Shown here in pieces: positions 8,393 through 47,264 of a DNA stretch of 64,000 nt (positions are counted from its first letter, which is position 1; each line of letters starts with the position of its first letter). This DNA comes from Chloranthus sessilifolius (taxonomy: Eukaryota > Streptophyta > Magnoliopsida > Chloranthales > Chloranthaceae). The notes under the pieces are model-generated. The model saw only the letters and a program-made list of their open reading frames with translations. It was not told the origin of the DNA and ran no database searches. The DNA is taken from assembly GCA_021018995.1 (NCBI GenBank), contig CM037586.1, positions 8,468,328 to 8,532,327 on the forward strand, read 5' to 3'. The position numbers and the translations under genes were made by a program.

Positions 8393-30857
<22,465 letters not shown>

Positions 30858-34984: not shown

Positions 34985-36317
34985 AACACCTTTAAGAGCA
35001 TCTCCAAAGCAGCTCTTCAAATCCAACGTGGCCTTTGAAAGGACTAATTTTGGTATTTGAAGAGTATCTTGCTTTATTCCAACCTACTCTTTAAATCCAA
35101 CTTGGATTAGAAGACTTGGTTTCACTCCTCAGATTTGAAGAGTCACCGTTCACTCTTCAAATTTAAATATAATTTTATTTTAATAAAATATGGAATCATT
35201 GATTAGAAAAAAATATATATATATATTTTTTTATTTGAAGAACATGGTTAAGAGATCCAACATCCTCGGCTCTTCAAATTCAAACCCACTCTTCAAATAG
35301 CCAAAAAATTTTGTTGGTGGGGACTACAAATGATAAAGAACCATACTTCATAGAAACTGAGTTAAATGGGGGCTTCTACATCATAGATTCGGGGGCTTAC
35401 TTACAAGCAAAGGTTATATAAGAACCATACTTAATAGAAACTCTAGAGTTAAATGGGGGCTTGAGCCCCCACACCGTTCTATGTGACTACGCTAGTGTTA
35501 TCATACTTGTATTCATAGTTACCAAGTGAGAGGTCCGGAATAAATCGGCTTGAGAAAAATCAGTAAATTTCGTGAAATTCAAGAAAAATATGATCAAAAT
35601 TTCCCTTAACGAGATTTTTTTATTATCAAAGGCCAATACTTCATTACAAGAAAATTTGGATGAAAAATTCAAAACCTTTCACCATAAACATCGAAAGAAA
35701 AGAGCTAAAAAGTTGATTTTTATTAAACCCTAATGGATGTTGTGAACCTTATAGTGTAACTTGCAATCATGTGCCGCACGGCACATAATCTAACCCCTGA
35801 GTATAATATTTTCATACTACACTCAAATATATATATATATATATATATATTCTTTGTTGCATTGATATGTGGTCACAAATACGTAGAGAATCATGTCATG
35901 TATACAACTTATTAAAGATCACAAAGAATGATCTGTGTATTTAAATTTATAAGTTAGTTTTCTTAAATAAAGAGATAGTATAGGTTCAAGTTACAAATTG
36001 ATCACCACTCTTTCGAATACTGAATTGATCCACTTGATTAAAAAATACATTTCTCTCGACTATTCATAAAGTCATAAATCATTGCTTGAGGTTTGTCATT
36101 TTAAATAAGTTGAGATTTAATCTGAAATTTTAATATAATTATGATATTTTTACCTTCCATAGTAGACTCCATCATTATATTACAGCTTGAAATAGGTTTA
36201 GTAAACATGTACTAAAGTTGATTTAATGAGTTTTAACATAAAATTATATATTAAAAGATCTTTGAACTTGATTTAGAAGGACTTGATGTGAGAAAGTTCA
36301 TATTAAATATATGCACC
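34985..36317. other. Non-coding stretch with a MITE remnant and an (AT)n tract
   Basis: A truncated GAGCATCTCCAAAG...-type MITE lies at about 34993-35310, and an (AT)n tract at 35827-35850. No gene is recognised up to the CACTA element. Confidence 0.5.
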
Positions 36318-36329
36318 CACTACAAAAAA

Positions 36330-36660
36330 TATGTTTATTGGAGACGGCCATTCAAAATGTGTTTATTGGAGACGGCCAATGACCGTCTCCAAAGGTGTCT
36401 AAGTCGTCTCCAATAGTATTGGAGACGGCTTCCATGTAGTCTCAAATAGTCCCGTCTCCATTGTCTTTAAAGACTAAATGAAAGCCGTCCCTAATAGTCA
36501 AGATTATTGCAGACGACATATGGCCGTCTTCAAAGATATGTTAGAGACGTCTCTAATAGGTCATCTAGCCATTTCCAAAACTTATTGGAGACGGCTTTAA
36601 GCCGTCTCCAATAAGTGACCTCCTGTCATTGGAGACGGCTTTTAGCCGTCTCCAACATTT
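36330..36660. repeat. Left subterminal repeats of the CACTA element
   Basis: About a dozen copies of GGAGACGGC or its complement GCCGTCTCC occur, several paired as hairpins (for example GGAGACGGCTTTAAGCCGTC). The right counterpart is at 46950-47070. Confidence 0.9.
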
Positions 36661-37179
36661 TATTTTTTCTTTAAATATATTTTTAAAAATATATATATTT
36701 GATAGTGATTTTTTTATGAAAATTTTTTGGCAGTAGTTTTTTTATGAAATTAAAAAAAAAAAAAAAAAATTTACGTCGACAATTTTTATGCAAATTTTTT
36801 TATAAATACTATTATTTTTTATTGCTTTTTCTTAATGCAATTGCTTTAATGCAATTTTTTTTAATGCATTTTTTAAATACTTTTTTTTAAGCAATTTTTT
36901 TTATTCCGAAAACAAGTTGATGGTGTAGACAACATATAATGATACCTCCAGCTACTAAAACAGAAAGAATGCACAATTGAGAGATCCTTCTCTGGATCAA
37001 ACTCCTTTAATTGATTGAAACCATTTTTATTTTCAAATTACAGAAAAACCATTCATTCTGTCAAATTATTTATATGCAAGTAAGGGACCGATATTATTCA
37101 CGGCAGGCGGTGGTCAGCAAATAAAAACTCCTTTTTGATACAAAAAGCTGAATATGTGACAAAGACAAGCTGATGAATC

Positions 37180-37376
37180 ACATCATGTCTGCAAAAAGGT
37201 GCAGCCTCGGTGTTGACCTCAGAATAGTTTCATCAAGGTGTCTAATCCACTCCAAAAGCCTCCACTATTTCCACTTCCACTTGAACTATAGTAGGCACTG
37301 ATGATTACTCATTTTCTATCTCTAGAGCTTTCTTGCTTCTCCTGCAACTGCTAGTTTCTTCATAACAGGTTATTTC
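37180..37376 (-). other. Exon-like tail, unidentified
   Basis: After an acceptor-like ACCATGCAG the minus strand reads EITCYEETSSCRRSKKALEI, then ENE and a stop. In another frame, after ATCATCAG, it reads AYYSSSGSGNSGGFWSGLDT, then LMKLF and a stop. Either could be a captured 3' exon; the frames are mutually exclusive and neither was recognised. Confidence 0.25.
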
Positions 37377-37534
37377 CTGCATGGTAGGGAGTCTAGGGAC
37401 CATTGAAAACAAAAGAGGATGACAGATAGATTTGAAAACACCTTTCTAAATTTACTAATAACCACAAAAAGCACTTCATTAATATATATTGCAAGGAAAA
37501 ACTAATGAGTAGTGACGATTTCACGCATTTACCT

Positions 37535-37775
37535 CACTACAAAAAAAAGTACCTACGCTGACGGCTACCAGCCGTCGGTAAACAGAAACACCGACGGCTT
37601 AAAGCCGTCGGCAATATTTCCGTGGGCGAATATCTACTCCGACGGCTAAAGTCGTCGGCATAAAGTTAGGTCCCAACGCCGACGGCTATAGCCGTCGGCA
37701 TAGGGTTATTTTTAGAGAAAAATTATTTCTCACCTACGCCGATGGCTGTAACCTAAAGCCGTCGGCGTAGGTGTT
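37535..37775. mobile_element. Second, truncated CACTA end nested inside the first
   Basis: It begins CACTACAAAAAAAAGTACC and is packed with GCCGTCGG and CCGACGGC repeats, a different subterminal repeat from the host element. A partner end with TTTTTTGTAGTG was not found nearby; the sequence ends in GCGTAGGTGTTTTTTTT without GTAGTG. It is probably a fragment or a decayed small CACTA derivative. Confidence 0.6.
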
Positions 37776-37785
37776 TTTTTTTAAG

Positions 37786-37823
<38 letters not shown>

Positions 37824-38307
37824 TAATAATAATAATAATTTTTTTTTTTTTTTTCAATTTATTTCCCCAGCTCACTAGTAGGTCACCCATTTTGCTGTTT
37901 TTTTGGAGTTTCCCTAAATCCATGCATGGGAGCACCAGCTACTCGGCCCGTGTAGCCTAAATATTACAAAGCTTATAATTTTTTGGATACCTCTTTTAAT
38001 AAACTGATTGCTTGGTCTGGCAAATGAATTATCAGTATCCTCATAAAAGCATGCATCTGATTAGAATTCACACATAAAGATCTGTTTAATAGTAGGGAAA
38101 CTCTAAAAAAGAAATAAAATCAATGAACTGATTTCCTCAAGCCTCAAGGGAAATTGGGTAGAAATGAAATATAGCAGCTAGACCTGCATATTAAAACACT
38201 TCTTCAACTTTTGTGCAATACGATATTATTCAACGTGAAACGAATGAGTTTATGATGTTAGAATTTAGACGCTGACACATGGCCATAAACCATAACAAAA
38301 TTCATAC

Positions 38308-39248
38308 CTTTGATGGATCTATAATTCTGGAACCCATCAAATCCTCATAAAGATCTTTAGCAGCATTATATCCGTATTTCACATCATCACTAGACAAAAT
38401 CTGAAAAAATAATTTAACCAGTACATGTTTTACAATGGCATAAGCAAGCAAAAATTCTCGGTATGGAAAACATATATTTAAAATTGAATTTCAGCATTTT
38501 ATAATATTTTATGCAGATCTTCTCTATAACAACGCTTCCATTTACACCTACGTTTTTCGCTATCAACTTTAAAGGATAGGTGAAAGCCCTTTTGAAGATG
38601 TCTGCTCCAATCAGCATGAACAATTCTACATATAAGATTCCGATCTTCCAAAAAAACAACAATTAGAAGCTTAAATCTAGTACACATTCAAACGAAAAAT
38701 TTATACACAACAAAAGTCTACAAAAAGATCATTCCCATATACAAGTCATTTCTAAATTTTCCTATCTAATAGACACTCTACGATAAAGTAGCATCCATTA
38801 GGTTCCCTCTCCGGTAAATTTTTAAAAAATTTAAGGGTGTATCCTGCAGAAGGGACTGCATGGTAAGACTTTCAACAATTGAAGACTATGAATACATAGC
38901 AGGTCAATCAATCTACAGAGGAACTCATATTTTCCTATCTGTACTACAAGATCCAATTTTAGTATCAAAATTTCAAAAGCATAACAATAAAACAACACTT
39001 TCTGCTCTTCATTAGTCAGAGATTCCTTGATTCCATCCACCTTCAAAGATAGCCTCAGCATGCTACAACCACCACCAACCACAACACCTTCCTCAATAGC
39101 AGCCTACAAGATTAACTAGCATAATTTACTAAAAGACTGATATCAACCTATATCGATAAAGAGAGTTAGTAACTACCTTAGTCGCATTTAGAGCATCTTC
39201 AATTCTCAGCATTTTATCCTTCAATTCAACCTCTGCTTGTGCCCCTAC
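38308..39248 (-). pseudogene. Captured fragment of a plastid chaperonin CPN60-beta gene
   Basis: Four exon blocks match the C-terminal part of plastid Cpn60 beta, which folds Rubisco and other proteins. 39248-39177 reads VGAQAEVELKDKMLRIEDAL. 39103-38999 reads [20 protein letters not shown], with the GGG nucleotide-binding loop. About 38611-38519 reads [20 protein letters not shown]. 38400-38308 reads [20 protein letters not shown], then [11 protein letters not shown]. Introns are kept, so it was not copied from mRNA. The N-terminal and apical parts are absent. The third block has lost its AG acceptor (CTGATTGG) and its GT donor (AAG|ATCTGC). It is therefore a partial pseudogene. Confidence 0.85.
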
Positions 39249-40281
39249 CTATCGTGAATTAAAAACAAAATGTATTGGATCTCAAGGGTATCTTGAAAGT
39301 TAAATTCTAAAGGGTTCGATACTTTGGCCATTGTAGCTTGCTGGACTGTAGAGTTTTAATTTTTTGGCCATTCACCTAAAGTACTATGCAAATGCTGAGG
39401 AGAGATAAGGTCAACAGATTTGTATCTTGTGAAGAATATGCTCGATTAACCCATACTAGCTTTCTATATAAATCCCAACAAGTATCAATTGTATTATTAT
39501 TAAATACCGTAAGTACATGTAAGGGGTCCATGGCCCCTAATAATGAGGATCCAATGTCATTAATCATAAATCAGACCCGATTTAGTATAGCTCTGATACC
39601 AATTGATGTAAGAACACAGCCAACGATATTTTAATTTCAGGTTAGTAGATAAAAACCTACTTTAAAATAAGTTTTAGCGTGTAAAACCACGACTAATCTG
39701 TCCTCGATAGTAAAGTAGTACAAGTTCAGATTTTCTGCTCACAAATTCGTTTAAAAACATAGAATTTAACAATGATAAAGATAATTGGCTTGCCTAGAAA
39801 TCTGTGTAGAAATACTGCCCACTATGCCACAAATTTTAGATGAAATCTGAACGCCAAACTACCATATATATAAATATTTGGACATAGAAAATATTTGCCA
39901 CACACCTGTTATTACAATAAGATATAATCTGATCAGTAGTAAAGGAATCCACAAAATTTTTCAGAGCGAATATCCAACAAATACAAATCTTTAACACGTA
40001 AACTAGGTGCGTGATAACAACCTTTAACTGGTCTAAGAAAAATAGTAGATTCATGGCGAACACGAGAACTAAAACCCTATAAATTGGCTACCAAAATCGA
40101 TAAATGTTTTCATCGAACATGAGGTGGTCTACATACCTTGGTAAAACACGATCTTTTTATAATGGATGATCCCACCAGTGAAGAAAGCACATCCAAGCAC
40201 TAGAAGCATATTTGATAAGATAGAGCCAAGCAACAACCATTATTATGAATTGCACAAAATAATAAACCGTGAGAAATATCA

Positions 40282-41205
40282 CTATCCATCAATCATACAA
40301 CTTGGCCATATACTGAAGCCTTTTCTTCCACCCGCTGCATTGTCATCTTCATGAAGGCTATCTGTAAGAGACACTCTGAAGTCTCTTCCTCTGCGCTGGT
40401 ACAAAGCCCTTGTTTCCTCTTCCTACAATATGAAATATAAACAGAAAAAAATAAATATAAAAATAAATAACGGTTCATGAAGCCACATTTTATCGTATAG
40501 AATTAAGTGCCTAGAGTGCAGAGCATGAAAAATTAAAAACAGAACCTTAACAACAAAATGAATAGCTGAAAGGGTACTGTTACTACTAAAATCAATTTGC
40601 ACTTCCTGTAGTATCTGCCCTTCCAAAGCTGATGAGGATTTTTTCAAGGGTGTCTCCATTGCATAGTCCTGAAAGATCAAGAAGCAAATATATTAATGAC
40701 ATAAACATAAGGAATATATGGATGTCAAGAGACCAATCAATACCTTAATGGGCACAGATCCAGAGGGTCTCATTTCAGGAGGCAGTTGATCCCATTCACT
40801 ACAAAGCTTCCAAAGATACAATAAGTTCTTGTGATTATTAGCTTGCCAAATGATACATCATCACTATAAACATAAGTCTCAATTCAACAAAGATCCTATA
40901 GACCCCCAGTTTCAATCAATATTCATCTCGTAACTTCATTTAATATTCTGTCATTATGCATAACGCATGTTTTATTCAATCATTGGATGAGGCTCAATGG
41001 TGAAGGTCAAAACTCGCACTAGAACTTTTTTTTGCCAAATTAACTTATAAGAACACACTTCAAGGTAAACGAAAACCAAGATTGATGAAGTAACCTTTTT
41101 GAAGAAATTTTCCATCCCCATATCTGAAGCATTAGGCGAAAACCCAATCCCTAGTTCAATGCCCTCCCCTCTAGAAGGTTGGCCTCTAGCCTTCTCAAAG
41201 GAATG
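40282..41205 (-). pseudogene. Captured fragment of an unidentified gene, at least four exons
   Basis: Four blocks look coding. 41205-41095: HSFEKARGQPSRGEGIELGI, then FSPNASDMGMENFFKK, with good splice sites. About 40840-40744: LYLWKLCSEWDQLPPEMRPS then GSVPIK. 40668-40546: DYAMETPLKKSSSALEGQIL then QEVQIDFSSNSTLSAIHFVV. 40422-40282: EEETRALYQRRGRDFRVSLT, then about 26 residues and a stop. The last three join in frame at GT-AG introns. I do not recognise the family. Low-complexity AT introns separate the blocks. Whether the first block belongs to the same donor gene is uncertain. Confidence 0.5.
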
Positions 41206-42828
41206 CTGCATGTACACCCTCAAAATAAGCTCACAGAAAGAGGTGACCAACGACACTACTTATTTAATAGAGGAAAAAATTAAACTACTTTGCAAAAATA
41301 CATTTAAAAATTAGATAATGCAAATTTAAGAGAAAAAAGAAGCATAATCTTGTAAATCAGTACCTAAAACAGAACACTCACAAGACCATTAATAGGTTAT
41401 TTCCAAGATTATTTCCATTTAAAGGTTCTTAAAAATAATAGGACTAGTATACTTGATCACATCTCCCATAATAGAATTTAGAACACATGCCCTAAATGAT
41501 AGAAAATAAAATTTTAATTTTCAGTGATTAGTTAGATTGATTTTGAATCAGATTCCAAAATAATTCACAATTCACCAAGTCTAGTACCAAATTTTGACAA
41601 AAGATAAGACTAGGTAGAAAAAATTCAGAGAATTCAATCTGAAAACAGAAGCTCGTGAGCCATTTTTTATTTTATTTTGTTTTGTTTGGGTGGTTGCATT
41701 GATCAGTCACAAATTTCTCCTAATTTCGTTGAATTTTCAGTGAAATTTTCCACACGTGTGGGTTGAGGAATATATGATGCACCAATTTTATGGAGTAAAA
41801 ACATTGTATTTCAACTTCAAATATGTTAGAATATATGCTTTATATATTTTAATATTTTTTATTTATTTCTCATAATCCATGAATTTTTAAACCTCAAAGC
41901 TATTTTTAAACCTCAAAGTCATGTTCTAATTTTTCTCTCATGTACAACTGTTATCATTAAAGATTGTGGGATCAGTAGAATCTCATTTTATCACTCTTTG
42001 ACATAATTCCAAAGCTAGGACAGGGACATTGGAGATTGGACTATAAACTTCAATAATTCGCCTCTGCTCTAGCTATCTTGGCACCTTGAGTTCATAAACT
42101 AGTATTTGTTTCTACTAAAATAATTGAACTGATTCGCTTAAGAAGCTAGCTCAGTAACTCAACTGATCCGATTCAATATCTGAACTAGATCAGTTCATAA
42201 ACTACTAGTATTTTAGTTTCAGTTACACTCCAAAACTGGGCTAACTATGCATTTCTTTGTTATGAATTTATTCAGTTTAGCTGACCCAGTATTTGTACTT
42301 CTTTCCCCACACATATGGATACACAAACTAAGAGCACTCACTCACTGATCAACAACTGTCATCCATTCCACAGTCTCACTTCACTAGACCCAATTCTAAT
42401 TGACAAGGATACGTAAGGGAGAATCTATAGGAATGATAGTTCTGTCCCTTCAATCTGTCCCTGAATGACCAAGTTGTACCAATATATTGCTCCCCTCATC
42501 CACCGAGGACACTTTTTTATGGATCTCATGGCACCTCCCACAGAACTTTTATGCCATTACAGAGGATCATATCATTAGAGACCCAAATTTGTCCTGGATT
42601 ACCTATACAACATCACTAATTATGTCCTTTTCTTTGTCATCTACCTCACCTTAGAAGAATTTCAAATGGAGGGAATAGACAATTCACTGCACATGTTTCT
42701 AACAGATCATTCTATGATAACTGTGACCCGCAAGTATTGTGGGCATAACAACAAACTACACAAGAAGCAAGCTCTGAGTTGTAGCAAAGCTCTGAGTTGT
42801 AGCAAAGGGTAGTGATAAAAATATGTAC

Positions 42829-44980
42829 CTTCTTGCCAATCCTCCGGAAGTGGGTTCCAATAGGCATGATCTCTTCCATCCCAATATGCACAAAGGGGAC
42901 AACTACAGAGACATAGTCGGCATCCATTACCAACCTGTTAAGGAAATGAACAGTAATGAATGGAGAAAATACAAAATTTTCCATAATGGCACAGAAAGCA
43001 AATTAGAAAAAAGGTGCCATAAGGATGATTTCCATAAAAAAAATCTGAAGGTATGCAAGCATGGTACTTGGACTGCATCAGAAAATGGTGCTACTACACT
43101 AAAATGATGTTACACTTAATACAAAATGATTTTACCGAAAAACTACTTTTCTATGCTCAATGCTTCAAAATAATCACCATCATCATCATAGCCTTATCCA
43201 ATCTATTTGGGGTCAGGACTTATCCTACAAAACATCCGACACAAAATGCTGCCCTTGCTGGCATTTAAACTCGACTATGATCAACCAACAAATGACAATT
43301 GGTAATCTTGATAACATGGTTTTACTTGAAAAAAAAATTGCATACTGTATAGATCATGTATAAATTGTGTTGATGCAATACCCTTCCTCACACATCTCCA
43401 AGAAATTGCAGGATGGCAGGGCTCATATATTTTGACCCCAATTCTTATGAGGTTTGAGTTGGTTTTTAAATTGTTGATGCAGGCACGTATTGAAACGGAA
43501 ATTTGATCTAGATGTTGCATATGAGAGCAACTCTACATGTCAGATCATGATTTCGTTGGTTAAAGTGTCTTAGAACAGATCCTTGTAGAAGATTGACAGA
43601 AGGATTGAGATTTGGCTGGTGGAAAGATTTCAGATCATCTCTCCATAGATCGTCATCTGGATTGTGGTCACATTCGACACATACTACTTAAAGATAAATC
43701 ATATGTTGAATTAGATGATGGTGATATCATAGTACAGAAGCATGAAAATCTCATTCACTTTTGAATAATGTTTCTTTAACACTAAACATTTAAAGATCTA
43801 TTTTACAAAGATTATCAAAAGATTTAGCATGGTTACTATCGTTGGATCCATAACCCAAGGAGGCAAGGTTCATTGTACCATGGAATCCCATAATAGAAGG
43901 ATTGGAGCGTATGATAGGCCTGAATTATGAACTACCAAAGATTTCAAAGATAATTTTGAAAGAAGGGGGGGGGAGACAGGACCAATTAAACTCAACGGAG
44001 AATATCTCCCAGTTGGGTGGGAATGATGTGGCTTAATATTTAAAACCAAATAAGAAAAGGTAGAAAACAAAGATGATGAGAGGAGATGTGGGCCATGTGG
44101 CAGTGAGCGCTCAAGAATTCAAAGACCTGCAGCAGAAACAGAGCAAAGAGTACACATTTTTGGCTAAAGATCTTATTCACTGGGACTGAAATATGGACCT
44201 GATATAAAAATTAAAAACAAATGGGTCTAAAAAACCCCAATGGAATTGCTTAAAGACCTCACATGAGGCTCTTGAAGTCCCCATGTGATCACGTGATTAT
44301 AGATCCGAGGTTTAACTTATACGATGTACCATTTTCTTCTTTTTAATTTGTGAGAAACACAAAAAAATGATTCTGTTTAATTATTTATTGATGAGAAGTA
44401 CGAAACTTCTCTTGTAGATTTGAAGGGTGCTCTTGCATATTCAAAGCTTAAAGTTACATAAATGGCATTAAATATATTTGTAAGTAAAGATCCAAGATGA
44501 CTTCATCAAGTGTGAAATTAATCTTCGGTCAATTTTACATACACACAAACACATTTTCTCAATTTCAGCTTGAAATTTCTAATCAAACTGTTATCTTAAC
44601 ACCAAATAGTAGGTCAGTTAGGAAAGATGCTCTTAACCATATGGAGAAGGAAAAATATAAGACACAGGTGCCAAGATTTAAGTTGTTTTAAACAAAATTG
44701 GGTAACAACTGCAAGTAAAAAATGAATTGCCTAGCTAACAACCTAAAATACTGAAACTTGCACAAGGAAAGCAAAAATAATATATATGTATATATATATA
44801 TATATATATATAATATCTAATATAATATAAAAATGAAAAATAATCTTACATCATTTCTCACCTTCCAACCCCTCTCTTAGCAGGGCCCAAGGTTCTGCCA
44901 CCATCGCAGGAACGACTGCCCTCTGGGAATATATGAACCCACCCATCTTTGTTCAGCTTTGACAGAGCCAAGTCCATCCC
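42829..44980 (-). pseudogene. Captured fragment of a tafazzin-type acyltransferase gene
   Basis: Two exons, 44980-44862 and 42934-42829, encode GMDLALSKLNKDGWVHIFPE, then GSRSCDGGRTLGPAKRGVGR, LVMDADYVSVVVPFVHIGME and EIMPIGTHFRRIGKK. HIFPEGSRS is the glycerolipid-acyltransferase motif III and KRGVGRL...PFVHIGM is typical of tafazzin (cardiolipin or NAPE remodelling; At1g78690-like). Donors, acceptors and phases (the Arg codon is split AG|G) are intact. The HX4D catalytic motif and both protein ends are missing, so no active enzyme is encoded. The separating intron is 1.9 kb. Confidence 0.85.
44770..44813. repeat. (AT)n microsatellite
   Basis: An AT tract lies just downstream, in minus-strand sense, of the first tafazzin-like exon. 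Confidence 0.9.
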
Positions 44981-45281
44981 CTGCACAGGTTTACAGATGA
45001 AAATATAATTATTTTAGCAAACAAATACCACATGAATCTAGAAATGGGAGCAGTCAAATGCATTCGGAATATAGAAAGTAGTCATGGAGAAGATAAGATA
45101 AACTATTACAAAATAAGATGACTAACTTGGTTTCCAAGCTGTACGTTCCAACATATGGGTAATGTTAGATTAATTTTACTTAGATATTCATCACAGTTCA
45201 AGCCAAAGAAACTTGTAGCCATTTTTTCTTGTTAGACGTGAATTTACTGAGACTATAACAGAAATACATTAAAACATAATA

Positions 45282-45282
<1 letters not shown>

Positions 45283-45353
<71 letters not shown>
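45283..45353. repeat. (AT)n microsatellite
   Basis: A pure AT tract of about 70 bp lies beside a stretch (45370-45560) rich in ACCAATACATATA/TATCGGTATT that resembles a decayed CGTATCGG-family MITE. Confidence 0.9.
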
Positions 45354-45356
<3 letters not shown>

Positions 45357-45599
45357 CCATGTATTTGAGCTCCAAATACATATATATGTATATGTATACC
45401 AAATACCAATACATATACAATACCAATATATGTATTGGTATTGTCTGATACCAATACATATATCGGTATTGCAGATATAAAATTTGTGTTGGCTAATCCC
45501 CATATCTCGTTGAGCTTCGATACAGGGATGTATCAGGTGATACAGATATAGATAAATCATACCTTGGAAGAACAACAACTGGAATAGCATTTATCCATA

Positions 45600-45836
45600 G
45601 TTTTAAATTTCGCCCAAGACGTATCGGGCAATGCATCTCACGTCTCAAAAAGCATAGCAAGATGAGATTGAGATGCGTTTCACACCGTATCGCTGAGATG
45701 CAAGACGTCTCAAAGCATAGCAAGATGAGATTGAGATGAGTTTCACACCGTATCGCTGAGATGCAAGACGTCTCAGTCTCCTGATTGTCCGAGACAACTC
45801 AGAAATTCGAGATTTCAAGCCATGCATGTATCTGTC
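45600..45836. mobile_element. hAT-like MITE with a 64-bp internal duplication
   Basis: The ends GTTTTAAATTTCGCCCAAG and the complement of CGAGATTTCAAGCCATG resemble the ATCAAAAT hAT ends. A unit of about 64 bases (AAGCATAGCAAGATGAGATT...) is repeated in tandem. It lies inside the CACTA element. Confidence 0.5.
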
Positions 45837-46235
45837 TTAGGAAATTCAGAAGCAGCCAAACAGGTCATAGGCAACATAATTTTTTAACTCAATCTTACAC
45901 TTAGATTAGGTCTAAGGTAACTTTTACTCTTCCCTTAGTTACAGCTCACCTCTAATCATACTCCTTTACATTAGAATAACCACTGCTTCATGACAAAGTC
46001 ATTGAGTTATTTTAACAAACATATTATATGCAGGCTATAGGTCCATAAGAACACTTCATCCAAAAATGATAAATATTATTTCTTATAGCAGCCATTAATC
46101 TTAATTAACAAACTAATCATCAAATTTAACCCAAATTGGTCCATAAGAACACAAGTATCTTAAAAAGAAAATAAAAATTTACAACAGAAAGAGGAAATGT
46201 GAACAGAGATGACCAGAGATCTGACCGAAAAATAC

Positions 46236-46250
46236 CTTATCATCTCCCAT
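46236..46250 (-). CDS. Short leader exon with start codon inside the CACTA
   Basis: The minus strand has a CT/GA-rich leader-like stretch (about 46330-46251), then ATG and MGDDK, then donor AAG|GTATTT. It ends in phase 0, the same phase with which the tafazzin-like exon at 44980 begins. It could be a captured first exon. A reading of four exons (15 + 119 + 106 + 111 nt) stays open for 117 codons. Confidence 0.3.
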
Positions 46251-46787
46251 CTCTCGCGAACTGATTGGAAACCAGCTCGTCTTCTCTCTCTTTCCTCTTG
46301 TCTCCTCGTTTGTCTAAACTCCAAAAGTCGAATAGAAAACATAAATAAATAGATATAATAAAGCGATTTGAGAGTTCGACGCCGATCAAAATCACTCTAA
46401 ATTCGAAAATCGCCTAATCAATGTATCCACGTGAAGCAGAAAAAAATCAAATGAAGCGATTCAAGAGATCCACACGGACACACCGATTAAACCGAGATCT
46501 GGAACAAAACCATGCCGAATTCAAGCTTTAATCGATACGGAAACGAAGAATACGAATAGAATATTGGTTTCAAATGAAATTAGGGTTAGGAAGAGCGATT
46601 GAGAGCTCGATAGAGATCTCTCGAAACCCCTGATTCCGATCGAGACCCTAGCTTTGTTAATTTTTTTAACAGAGTGGGAGATTGGAAAAAGAGATTAGCG
46701 AGAAAAATTGGGAGATCGATTAGGTTCGGAGAGAAGAAAGGGTTCCCTTGGGTTTTTTCTCATCGAATGGGGTTTGGATTCGGTTTT

Positions 46788-46790
<3 letters not shown>

Positions 46791-46821
<31 letters not shown>

Positions 46822-46824
46822 GGA
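46791..46824. repeat. (GA)n followed by a G run
   Basis: About ten GA units run into a G tract of about 13, in the putative captured promoter part of the CACTA element. Confidence 0.9.
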
Positions 46825-47085
46825 GTGGGCAGACAAACAATAGAGGTCGTGGATCTCATTTTATATGCAAAGAGTTTTTATAAAGTGCTAAATAAAAGTT
46901 TTTAGGGTAGTCTCCTAAAGCTCCTACCTAATTATACATGAAGTGATCCTTATTGAGACGGTCATGATATGCTATTTTATATAGGGAGACGGCTTTAGCC
47001 GTCCCTAATTAATAAATAGTTATTGGAGACGGCTTCAAAAAGCGGTCTCCAATAACCGTCTCCAAAAGTTCTTTTTTTTGTAGTG

Positions 47086-47264
47086 ACCTAACTTTTGAGT
47101 AGAACTATATCAATCATTTAATATTGTCCTTATGAAAAATTGAGGAAAAGAAAATGCAAGGTATAGAATATTAAAAAAAAAATAAAAAATAAAAAAGTTC
47201 CCTTTATAAACAGTTACTCATTCAAATAAATTTGCATATTTTCCTTTGTAATTACCAAGAAAAG

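Follow-up and report, generated by a model that had tools for sequence, protein, structure and literature searches.

A probable Pack-CACTA element of Chloranthus sessilifolius with cargo related to at least five other loci

Introduction

CACTA transposons that carry pieces of host genes have been described in several plants, and how Pack-type transposons acquire several unlinked gene fragments is still open. We analysed a 64,000-bp stretch of Chloranthus sessilifolius DNA (assembly GCA_021018995.1, contig CM037586.1, positions 8,468,328 to 8,532,327; hereafter the window), in which a 10.8-kb element at 36318-47085 is, with a probability of roughly 0.9, a non-autonomous Pack-CACTA.

In the portions of the literature considered here, the closest systems are the following. 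The soybean element Tgm-Express1 contains five gene fragments unrelated to one another, and splicing joins them into chimeric transcripts, of which some have open frames (PMC1947982). Pack-CACTAs of Arabidopsis and maize are bounded by terminal inverted repeats (TIRs) and target-site duplications (TSDs), lack a transposase and contain coding DNA from multiple loci, with the most distinct loci in maize (PMC8903248). Members of the Tpn1 family of Ipomoea nil have conserved ends, interiors replaced by host gene regions, some of them transcribed, and in nearly all cases 3-bp TSDs (PMC5105172), and Chenopodium CACTAs likewise capture gene fragments (PMC8978399).

As far as these accounts go, the present element resembles Tgm-Express1, a CACTA of the soybean wp allele, in combining fragments of several genes; the Arabidopsis and maize elements in its TIR and TSD bounds, missing transposase and multi-locus cargo; and the CACTA family Tpn1 in its kept ends and replaced interior, a likeness of description and not of base-by-base comparison. 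Tgm-Express1 is 5.7 kb long, lies in intron 2 of its host gene and was studied by reverse-transcription PCR, whereas our element is 10.8 kb long and known from genome sequence alone; unlike the Tgm-Express1 study, in the parts considered, it comes with probable sources, paralogous empty sites and junction copies within one genome. Multi-locus Pack-CACTAs having already been described in soybean and maize, it is a clear case of a known phenomenon, not a new element type. Probable sources, a fused product, seven junction places, a second composite and empty sites occur together in one assembly, so that the order and chemistry of capture are directly readable, the chemistry from overlaps, filler and leftover ends, and can be ranked in time.

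Boundaries, insertion site and family of the element

The element and its ends comprise the following features.

36315-36317, no strand: left TSD copy (ACC), from flank comparison and paralogous empty sites
36318-47085: whole element, 10768 bp, GC 0.35
36318-36329, plus: left TIR CACTACAAAAAA, perfect 12-bp match
36318-37534, plus: GGAGACGGC-family end, 3' relative to the cargo, with TIR, subterminal repeats (36340-36655) and adjoining family sequence
45544-46898, minus: 5' module common to sibling elements, of which 46360-46724 also occurs in a transposase-bearing relative
46898-47085, minus: 5' subterminal region with GGAGACGGC repeats
47074-47085, minus: right TIR CACTACAAAAAA, perfect 12-bp match
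47086-47088, no strand: right TSD copy (ACC), from flank comparison and paralogous empty sites

Both ends thus show the hallmarks of the CACTA superfamily, namely a perfect inverted 12-bp CACTACAAAAAA, equal 3-bp flanks (ACC/ACC) and subterminal GGAGACGGC repeats, as an earlier note on this DNA had claimed for a 10.8-kb element. The sole alternative pair of perfect ends within the window, 37535 and 47085, had unequal flanks (CCT/ACC). With at most one mismatch, CACTACAAAAAA occurred five times in the window (0.87 expected) and GGAGACGGC 21 times (2.54 expected), 15 of the latter inside the element near both ends. Across the 2.17-Gb genome, CACTACAAAAAA had 21,046 matches compared to 753 for a reversed-pattern control, and TTGGAGACGGCNNNNAGCCGTCTCCAA, the GGAGACGGC palindrome, had 525 forward and 549 reverse matches compared to none on either strand for its control, many of these being a single palindromic site scored on both strands.

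The insertion site was assessed with a 787-base query made of 600 bases of left and 187 bases of right flank joined by a single ACC. It matched across the junction on C2 (93%), C16 (86%), C5 (88%) and C6 (76%; contigs are abbreviated C1, C2 and so on, the element itself lying at C3:8504645-8515412), and all four aligned sites were contiguous, without an insert, reading ATGCAC, then C or T, then TAACTTTT, with ACC in C16 and C5 and ACT in C2 and C6. Empty sites of the kind foreseen in the earlier note were found, but as paralogous loci and not as an allele; they show that the element duplicated 3 bp on inserting into a repeated sequence.

The two ends are those of a large GGAGACGGC CACTA family. 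Sequence 36770-37530 had 40 scored matches, itself included, at 89-100% identity (of 952 first-look candidates), and the 5' module was common, whole or nearly so, to loci on C1, C2, C3 and C5 and two on C9, and partly to others. Because 46360-46724 and the TIR precede the CACTA transposase frames of C14:111.61 Mb (L057), both element ends are mother-family sequence, and the 5' end may retain the mother-family promoter. An origin of the 5' module in a captured host gene was also considered and was rejected at least for 46360-46724, which adjoins a CACTA end upstream of those transposase frames.

Separately, C7:45663757-45715491 (part of it L043) has 19 matches about 2.85 kb apart to the 46146-46757 piece at 84-90% identity, among the best 40 of 668 candidates that were scored. 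Of the four units in L043, two match the window's CACTA end as well, and the region is apparently a tandem array derived from a piece of the GGAGACGGC family.

Captured fragments and their probable sources

A chain of fragments fills the interior, at about 37535-45553.

37535-37775, plus: second-family CACTA terminus (CACTACAAAAAAAAGTACC, with GCCGACGGCT-type repeats) adjoining the CPN60 side of the cargo, right border approximate
37846-38174, listed as minus but without known sense: piece shared with a C9 composite locus (L048 4927-5262, 94%), between CPN60 and the second CACTA terminus
38167-39365, minus: CPN60-beta fragment, exons 39248-39177, 39103-38999, 38611-38519 and 38400-38308 with introns (CPN60, PF00118, 9e-10)
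39368-40036, listed as minus but without known sense: piece related to C2:171932120-171932788 (94% identity)
40099-40233, minus: CAX-like (vacuolar cation/proton exchanger) exon fragment, weak assignment
40242-40983, minus: alpha-amylase fragment, exons about 40798-40744, 40668-40546 and from 40422, with introns (starch-binding Ig-like, PF23166, 1.7e-14)
40980-42664, minus: 'gene 4' fragment, plausible exon 41205-41095, bounds by eye
42663-45553, minus: tafazzin-type acyltransferase fragment, exons 44980-44862 and 42934-42829 with introns (acyltransferase, PF01553, 1e-7)

Three of these host gene fragments have probable sources elsewhere in the genome. The tafazzin fragment matched C15:1.53 Mb at 93.4% identity, gaps counted, where an upstream exon extends the PF01553 match to 3e-15 and a further exon could be made out by eye downstream; C15:1.523-1.5315 Mb is its probable source gene. 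The amylase fragment, presumably AMY3-like, matched C7:28.58 Mb at 94% identity and was also similar to a second C7 locus at 48.70 Mb. The probable source gene at C7:28.578-28.590 Mb contains alpha-amylase catalytic exons (1.3e-33 to barley alpha-amylase) and, by eye, a second similar N-terminal stretch, and all nine distinct PDB sequences matched by the catalytic exons at E <= 1e-10 were alpha-amylases. Pfam was weak on these exons (PF00128, E 0.0021, 17.8 bits, cut-off 22), and the locus was not among the three matches of a genome search with PF00128. GWD1 was tried for this fragment, since the Pfam domain is named for alpha-glucan water dikinase, but was rejected given the catalytic exons of the C7 gene. 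The CPN60-beta fragment (6.8e-27 to Chlamydomonas chaperonin 60B1) matched C7:40.2158-40.2223 Mb, with identity near 96% along two long stretches and 92% along a shorter one. That locus, where upstream CPN60 exons follow in order (E 2.5e-6 to 9e-4), is probably the native source, while C9:78.54 Mb was rejected as such because it carries CAX-like and Lon-like exons and ends in a CACTA-type terminus.

Gene 4 matched C3:102.30 Mb (L046 776-2428) at 93.95% identity, a locus that is one of five with the gene-4 side of a junction alone. No Pfam family was found for it, and its peptide, combined with that of amylase, matched antibody chains only in PDB, at E 0.15 or worse. For the CAX-like exon, which also occurs at C9:78.54 Mb (L048 473-610), the best PDB match was vacuolar cation/proton exchanger 1 (E 0.0037), and the five sequences found were four cation transporters and one unrelated protein; PF01699 reached E 0.045, below cut-off.

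The earlier note had recognised intron-containing fragments of at least three unlinked genes on one strand, as if in one transcription unit. Introns accompany exons in the tafazzin, amylase and CPN60-beta segments as it stated, and probable parental genes were recovered for its tafazzin (C15) and CPN60-beta (C7). There are more than three sources, as the third gene, left unnamed there, divides into the amylase fragment (C7) and the separate gene 4 (related C3 locus). Tafazzin is unlinked to the rest, but C7 holds both the amylase and the CPN60 gene, separated by about 11.6 Mb. A common strand was borne out for tafazzin, amylase, the CAX-like exon and CPN60, with a plausible same-strand exon in gene 4, but is not claimed for 37846-38174 and 39368-40036; the captured fragments may form one transcription unit.

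Apart from the cargo, C1:31763845-31765329 contains a full-length uninterrupted Cpn60 frame (571 aa, E 1.3e-159), the other genome matches being exon by exon, and is perhaps bacterial or organellar DNA in the assembly.

Copies, junctions and mode of capture

We assessed the spread of the cargo with a 241-bp query across the gene 4/amylase junction. All 241 bp were found at seven places, the window included, at 97-100% identity, and the remaining loci had the amylase side alone (118-241, two loci) or all or part of the gene-4 side alone (1-121, five loci). Its presence in seven places suggests that the fusion was probably formed once and then spread. The copies anticipated in the earlier note include a C1 element (32407752-32416207, 8456 bp) with two ends and its own AGT TSD, which contains parts of the same interior with internal losses, and a C2 copy collinear with window 36354-47032, which contains nearly all of the interior and kept one end; its right end was looked for and not found. 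The copy at C1:153.85 Mb has the family 3' sequence, with its two palindromes, as far from the cargo as expected. Copies also lie at C13:14.17, C15:23.2, C4:128.38 and C7:126.97 Mb.

In three copies (L015, L016 and L017, at C1:153.86, C15:23.19 and C13:14.18 Mb) the sequence departs from tafazzin at window position 42918, with similar open frames upstream. It seems that another 5' part had been joined on by fusion before these copies spread.

We propose that a GGAGACGGC-family CACTA kept its ends (36318-37534 and 45544-47085) while fragments related to five or more other loci took the place of its interior; these would have been joined successively by repair-type template switching. Template switching is suggested by the overlaps of 4 bp at the gene 4/amylase junction and 2 bp at the tafazzin/gene 4 junction, the short filler at the 5'-module/tafazzin junction and the approximately 8 bases between matches at the amylase/CAX junction, none of the four having a CACTA end that we could find. 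In the model of capture described for Arabidopsis and maize, cargo is acquired by neighbouring insertions, and for Arabidopsis Pack-CACTAs two nearby copies around a gene are proposed to be mobilised jointly (PMC8903248, PMC13317346, in the parts considered), which differs from our explanation only in the capture step. The CACTA terminus at the 37535 cargo boundary and the same cargo beside such a terminus at C9:78.54 Mb would fit joint mobilisation, but the four junctions with overlaps or filler in place of CACTA ends would not, such that we regard it as unlikely, although it survives better than the other alternatives.

The template-switching explanation includes a nested step at the CPN60 side, where a CACTA end at 37535 that carries GCCGACGGCT-type repeats is turned towards the cargo. 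At C9:78.54 Mb (L048), of which one end was read, a CAX-like exon (there assigned by eye, PF01699 applying only to the window exon), CPN60, the 37846-38174 piece and a related terminus ending in CTAGTG occur in the order of the window, together with a Lon-like exon (PF05362, 2.9e-6). As CAX-CPN60 lies beside a second-family terminus in both places, the simplest reading is that this part may previously have been carried in another Pack-CACTA, entering the present element as the cargo of a nested second-family insertion whose terminus would survive at 37535. More generally, we tentatively suggest, at somewhat less than even odds, that two CACTA families, with GGAGACGGC and GCCGACGGC termini, exchange captured cargo through nesting and inner-end loss, such that exon chains grow stepwise and then amplify. 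If true, cargo would pass between CACTA families, and the surviving intermediates in one genome would be a fossil record of chain growth.

Order of capture and coding potential

Kimura two-parameter distances (K2P) between the window and the C2 copy were 0.0177 for tafazzin, 0.0170 for gene 4, 0.0210 for amylase and 0.0153 for CPN60, compared to 0.0374, 0.0432, 0.0478 (0.0534 for the second amylase locus) and 0.031-0.033, respectively, between the window and the probable sources. Since copy divergence (0.015-0.021) is below source divergence (0.031-0.053), capture of these four segments predates the split of the window and C2 copies. The dating proposed in the earlier note yields a clear order for tafazzin, gene 4, amylase (with the C2 copy) and CPN60, but a weak one for the 39368-40036 piece. 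At plant substitution rates of 6.5e-9 to 1.3e-8 per site per year, the copy distances would correspond to about 0.6-1.6 million years and the source distances to about 1.2-4.1 million years, figures from which we take no more than the order.

Were the retained 5' region to drive transcription, splicing could join the captured exons in chimeric RNAs. One frame of 117 codons spans a putative first exon placed by eye at 46250-46236, two exons of tafazzin and that of gene 4, and it continues to a stop at 40282 if an upstream AG is used at the amylase exon, as might be expected of a functional chimeric gene under selection. The inferred native amylase acceptor, however, leads to an immediate stop, and across ten captured exons the window and C2 copies differed at 18 of 1018 bases (1.8%; small numbers), like whole segments (K2P 0.015-0.021). 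At CPN60 exon 38611-38519 the acceptor is gone from both copies, and the window has lost the donor too. Exon divergence at the segment rate and this loss of both splice sites mean that no conserved protein product is apparent, nor any constraint seen, and a selected chimeric gene is very improbable. An open frame through all exons was also rejected as weak, requiring a by-eye choice of first exon and acceptor.

Mobility and weighing of the evidence

No transposase was recognised in the element, in line with the earlier note. Its longest stop-to-stop frame is 130 aa and rich in AT repeats, and the window was absent among 150 scored Transposase_21 places (of 1763 first-look candidates), although the element's frames were not individually scanned for transposase. 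These places make Transposase_21 abundant genome-wide, and one bearer, C14:111.61 Mb, has the same family 5' end and the 46360-46724 piece; a transposase produced elsewhere could move the element in trans.

TIRs, TSD, subterminal repeats, paralogous empty sites, intron-containing fragments, other copies and the absence of a recognised transposase together bear out the Pack-CACTA assignment made in the earlier note. Several observations weigh against parts of our account. The CAX assignment is weak, about 62 bases at 40036-40099 are unexplained, and gene 4 and the 39368-40036 piece have only candidate sources among their related loci. The divergence gap is uneven, with K2P between the window and C2 reaching 0.0345 in the 5' module and 0.0307 in the 39368-40036 piece (0.0406 to its C2:171.93 relative). 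Amylase in the C1 copy is at 0.0329, and a 72-bp CPN60 stretch is at 0.089. The nested insertion is based on collinearity with a single locus, C9:78.54 Mb. At C14:111.61 Mb the Transposase_21 stretch is broken by two stops, and a second (3') end, as an intact partner with both matching ends would have, was not found within 10 kb.

That two unrelated CACTA insertions flank an old cluster of gene fragments, their outer ends mimicking one element, is the least credible alternative. CACTACAAAAAA is indeed very common (21,046 matches) and a further internal CACTA end lies at 37535, but the outer flanks agree (ACC/ACC), the paralogous empty sites join exactly there, the C1 element has interior parts between two ends with an AGT TSD, and the C2 copy has nearly all of the interior.

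Other elements and ends

A sibling at C9:4065062-4073967 (L040) has the same 5' module, GTA on both sides and one end mutated to CATTATAAA. Its cargo includes lipin-like (PF08235, 1.6e-6) and kinase-like (PF00069, 1e-4) exons, both under the Pfam cut-offs, and further open frames. Within the window, two more CACTA-like ends, with one mismatch each, lie outside the element at 24847-24858 and 15119-15130.

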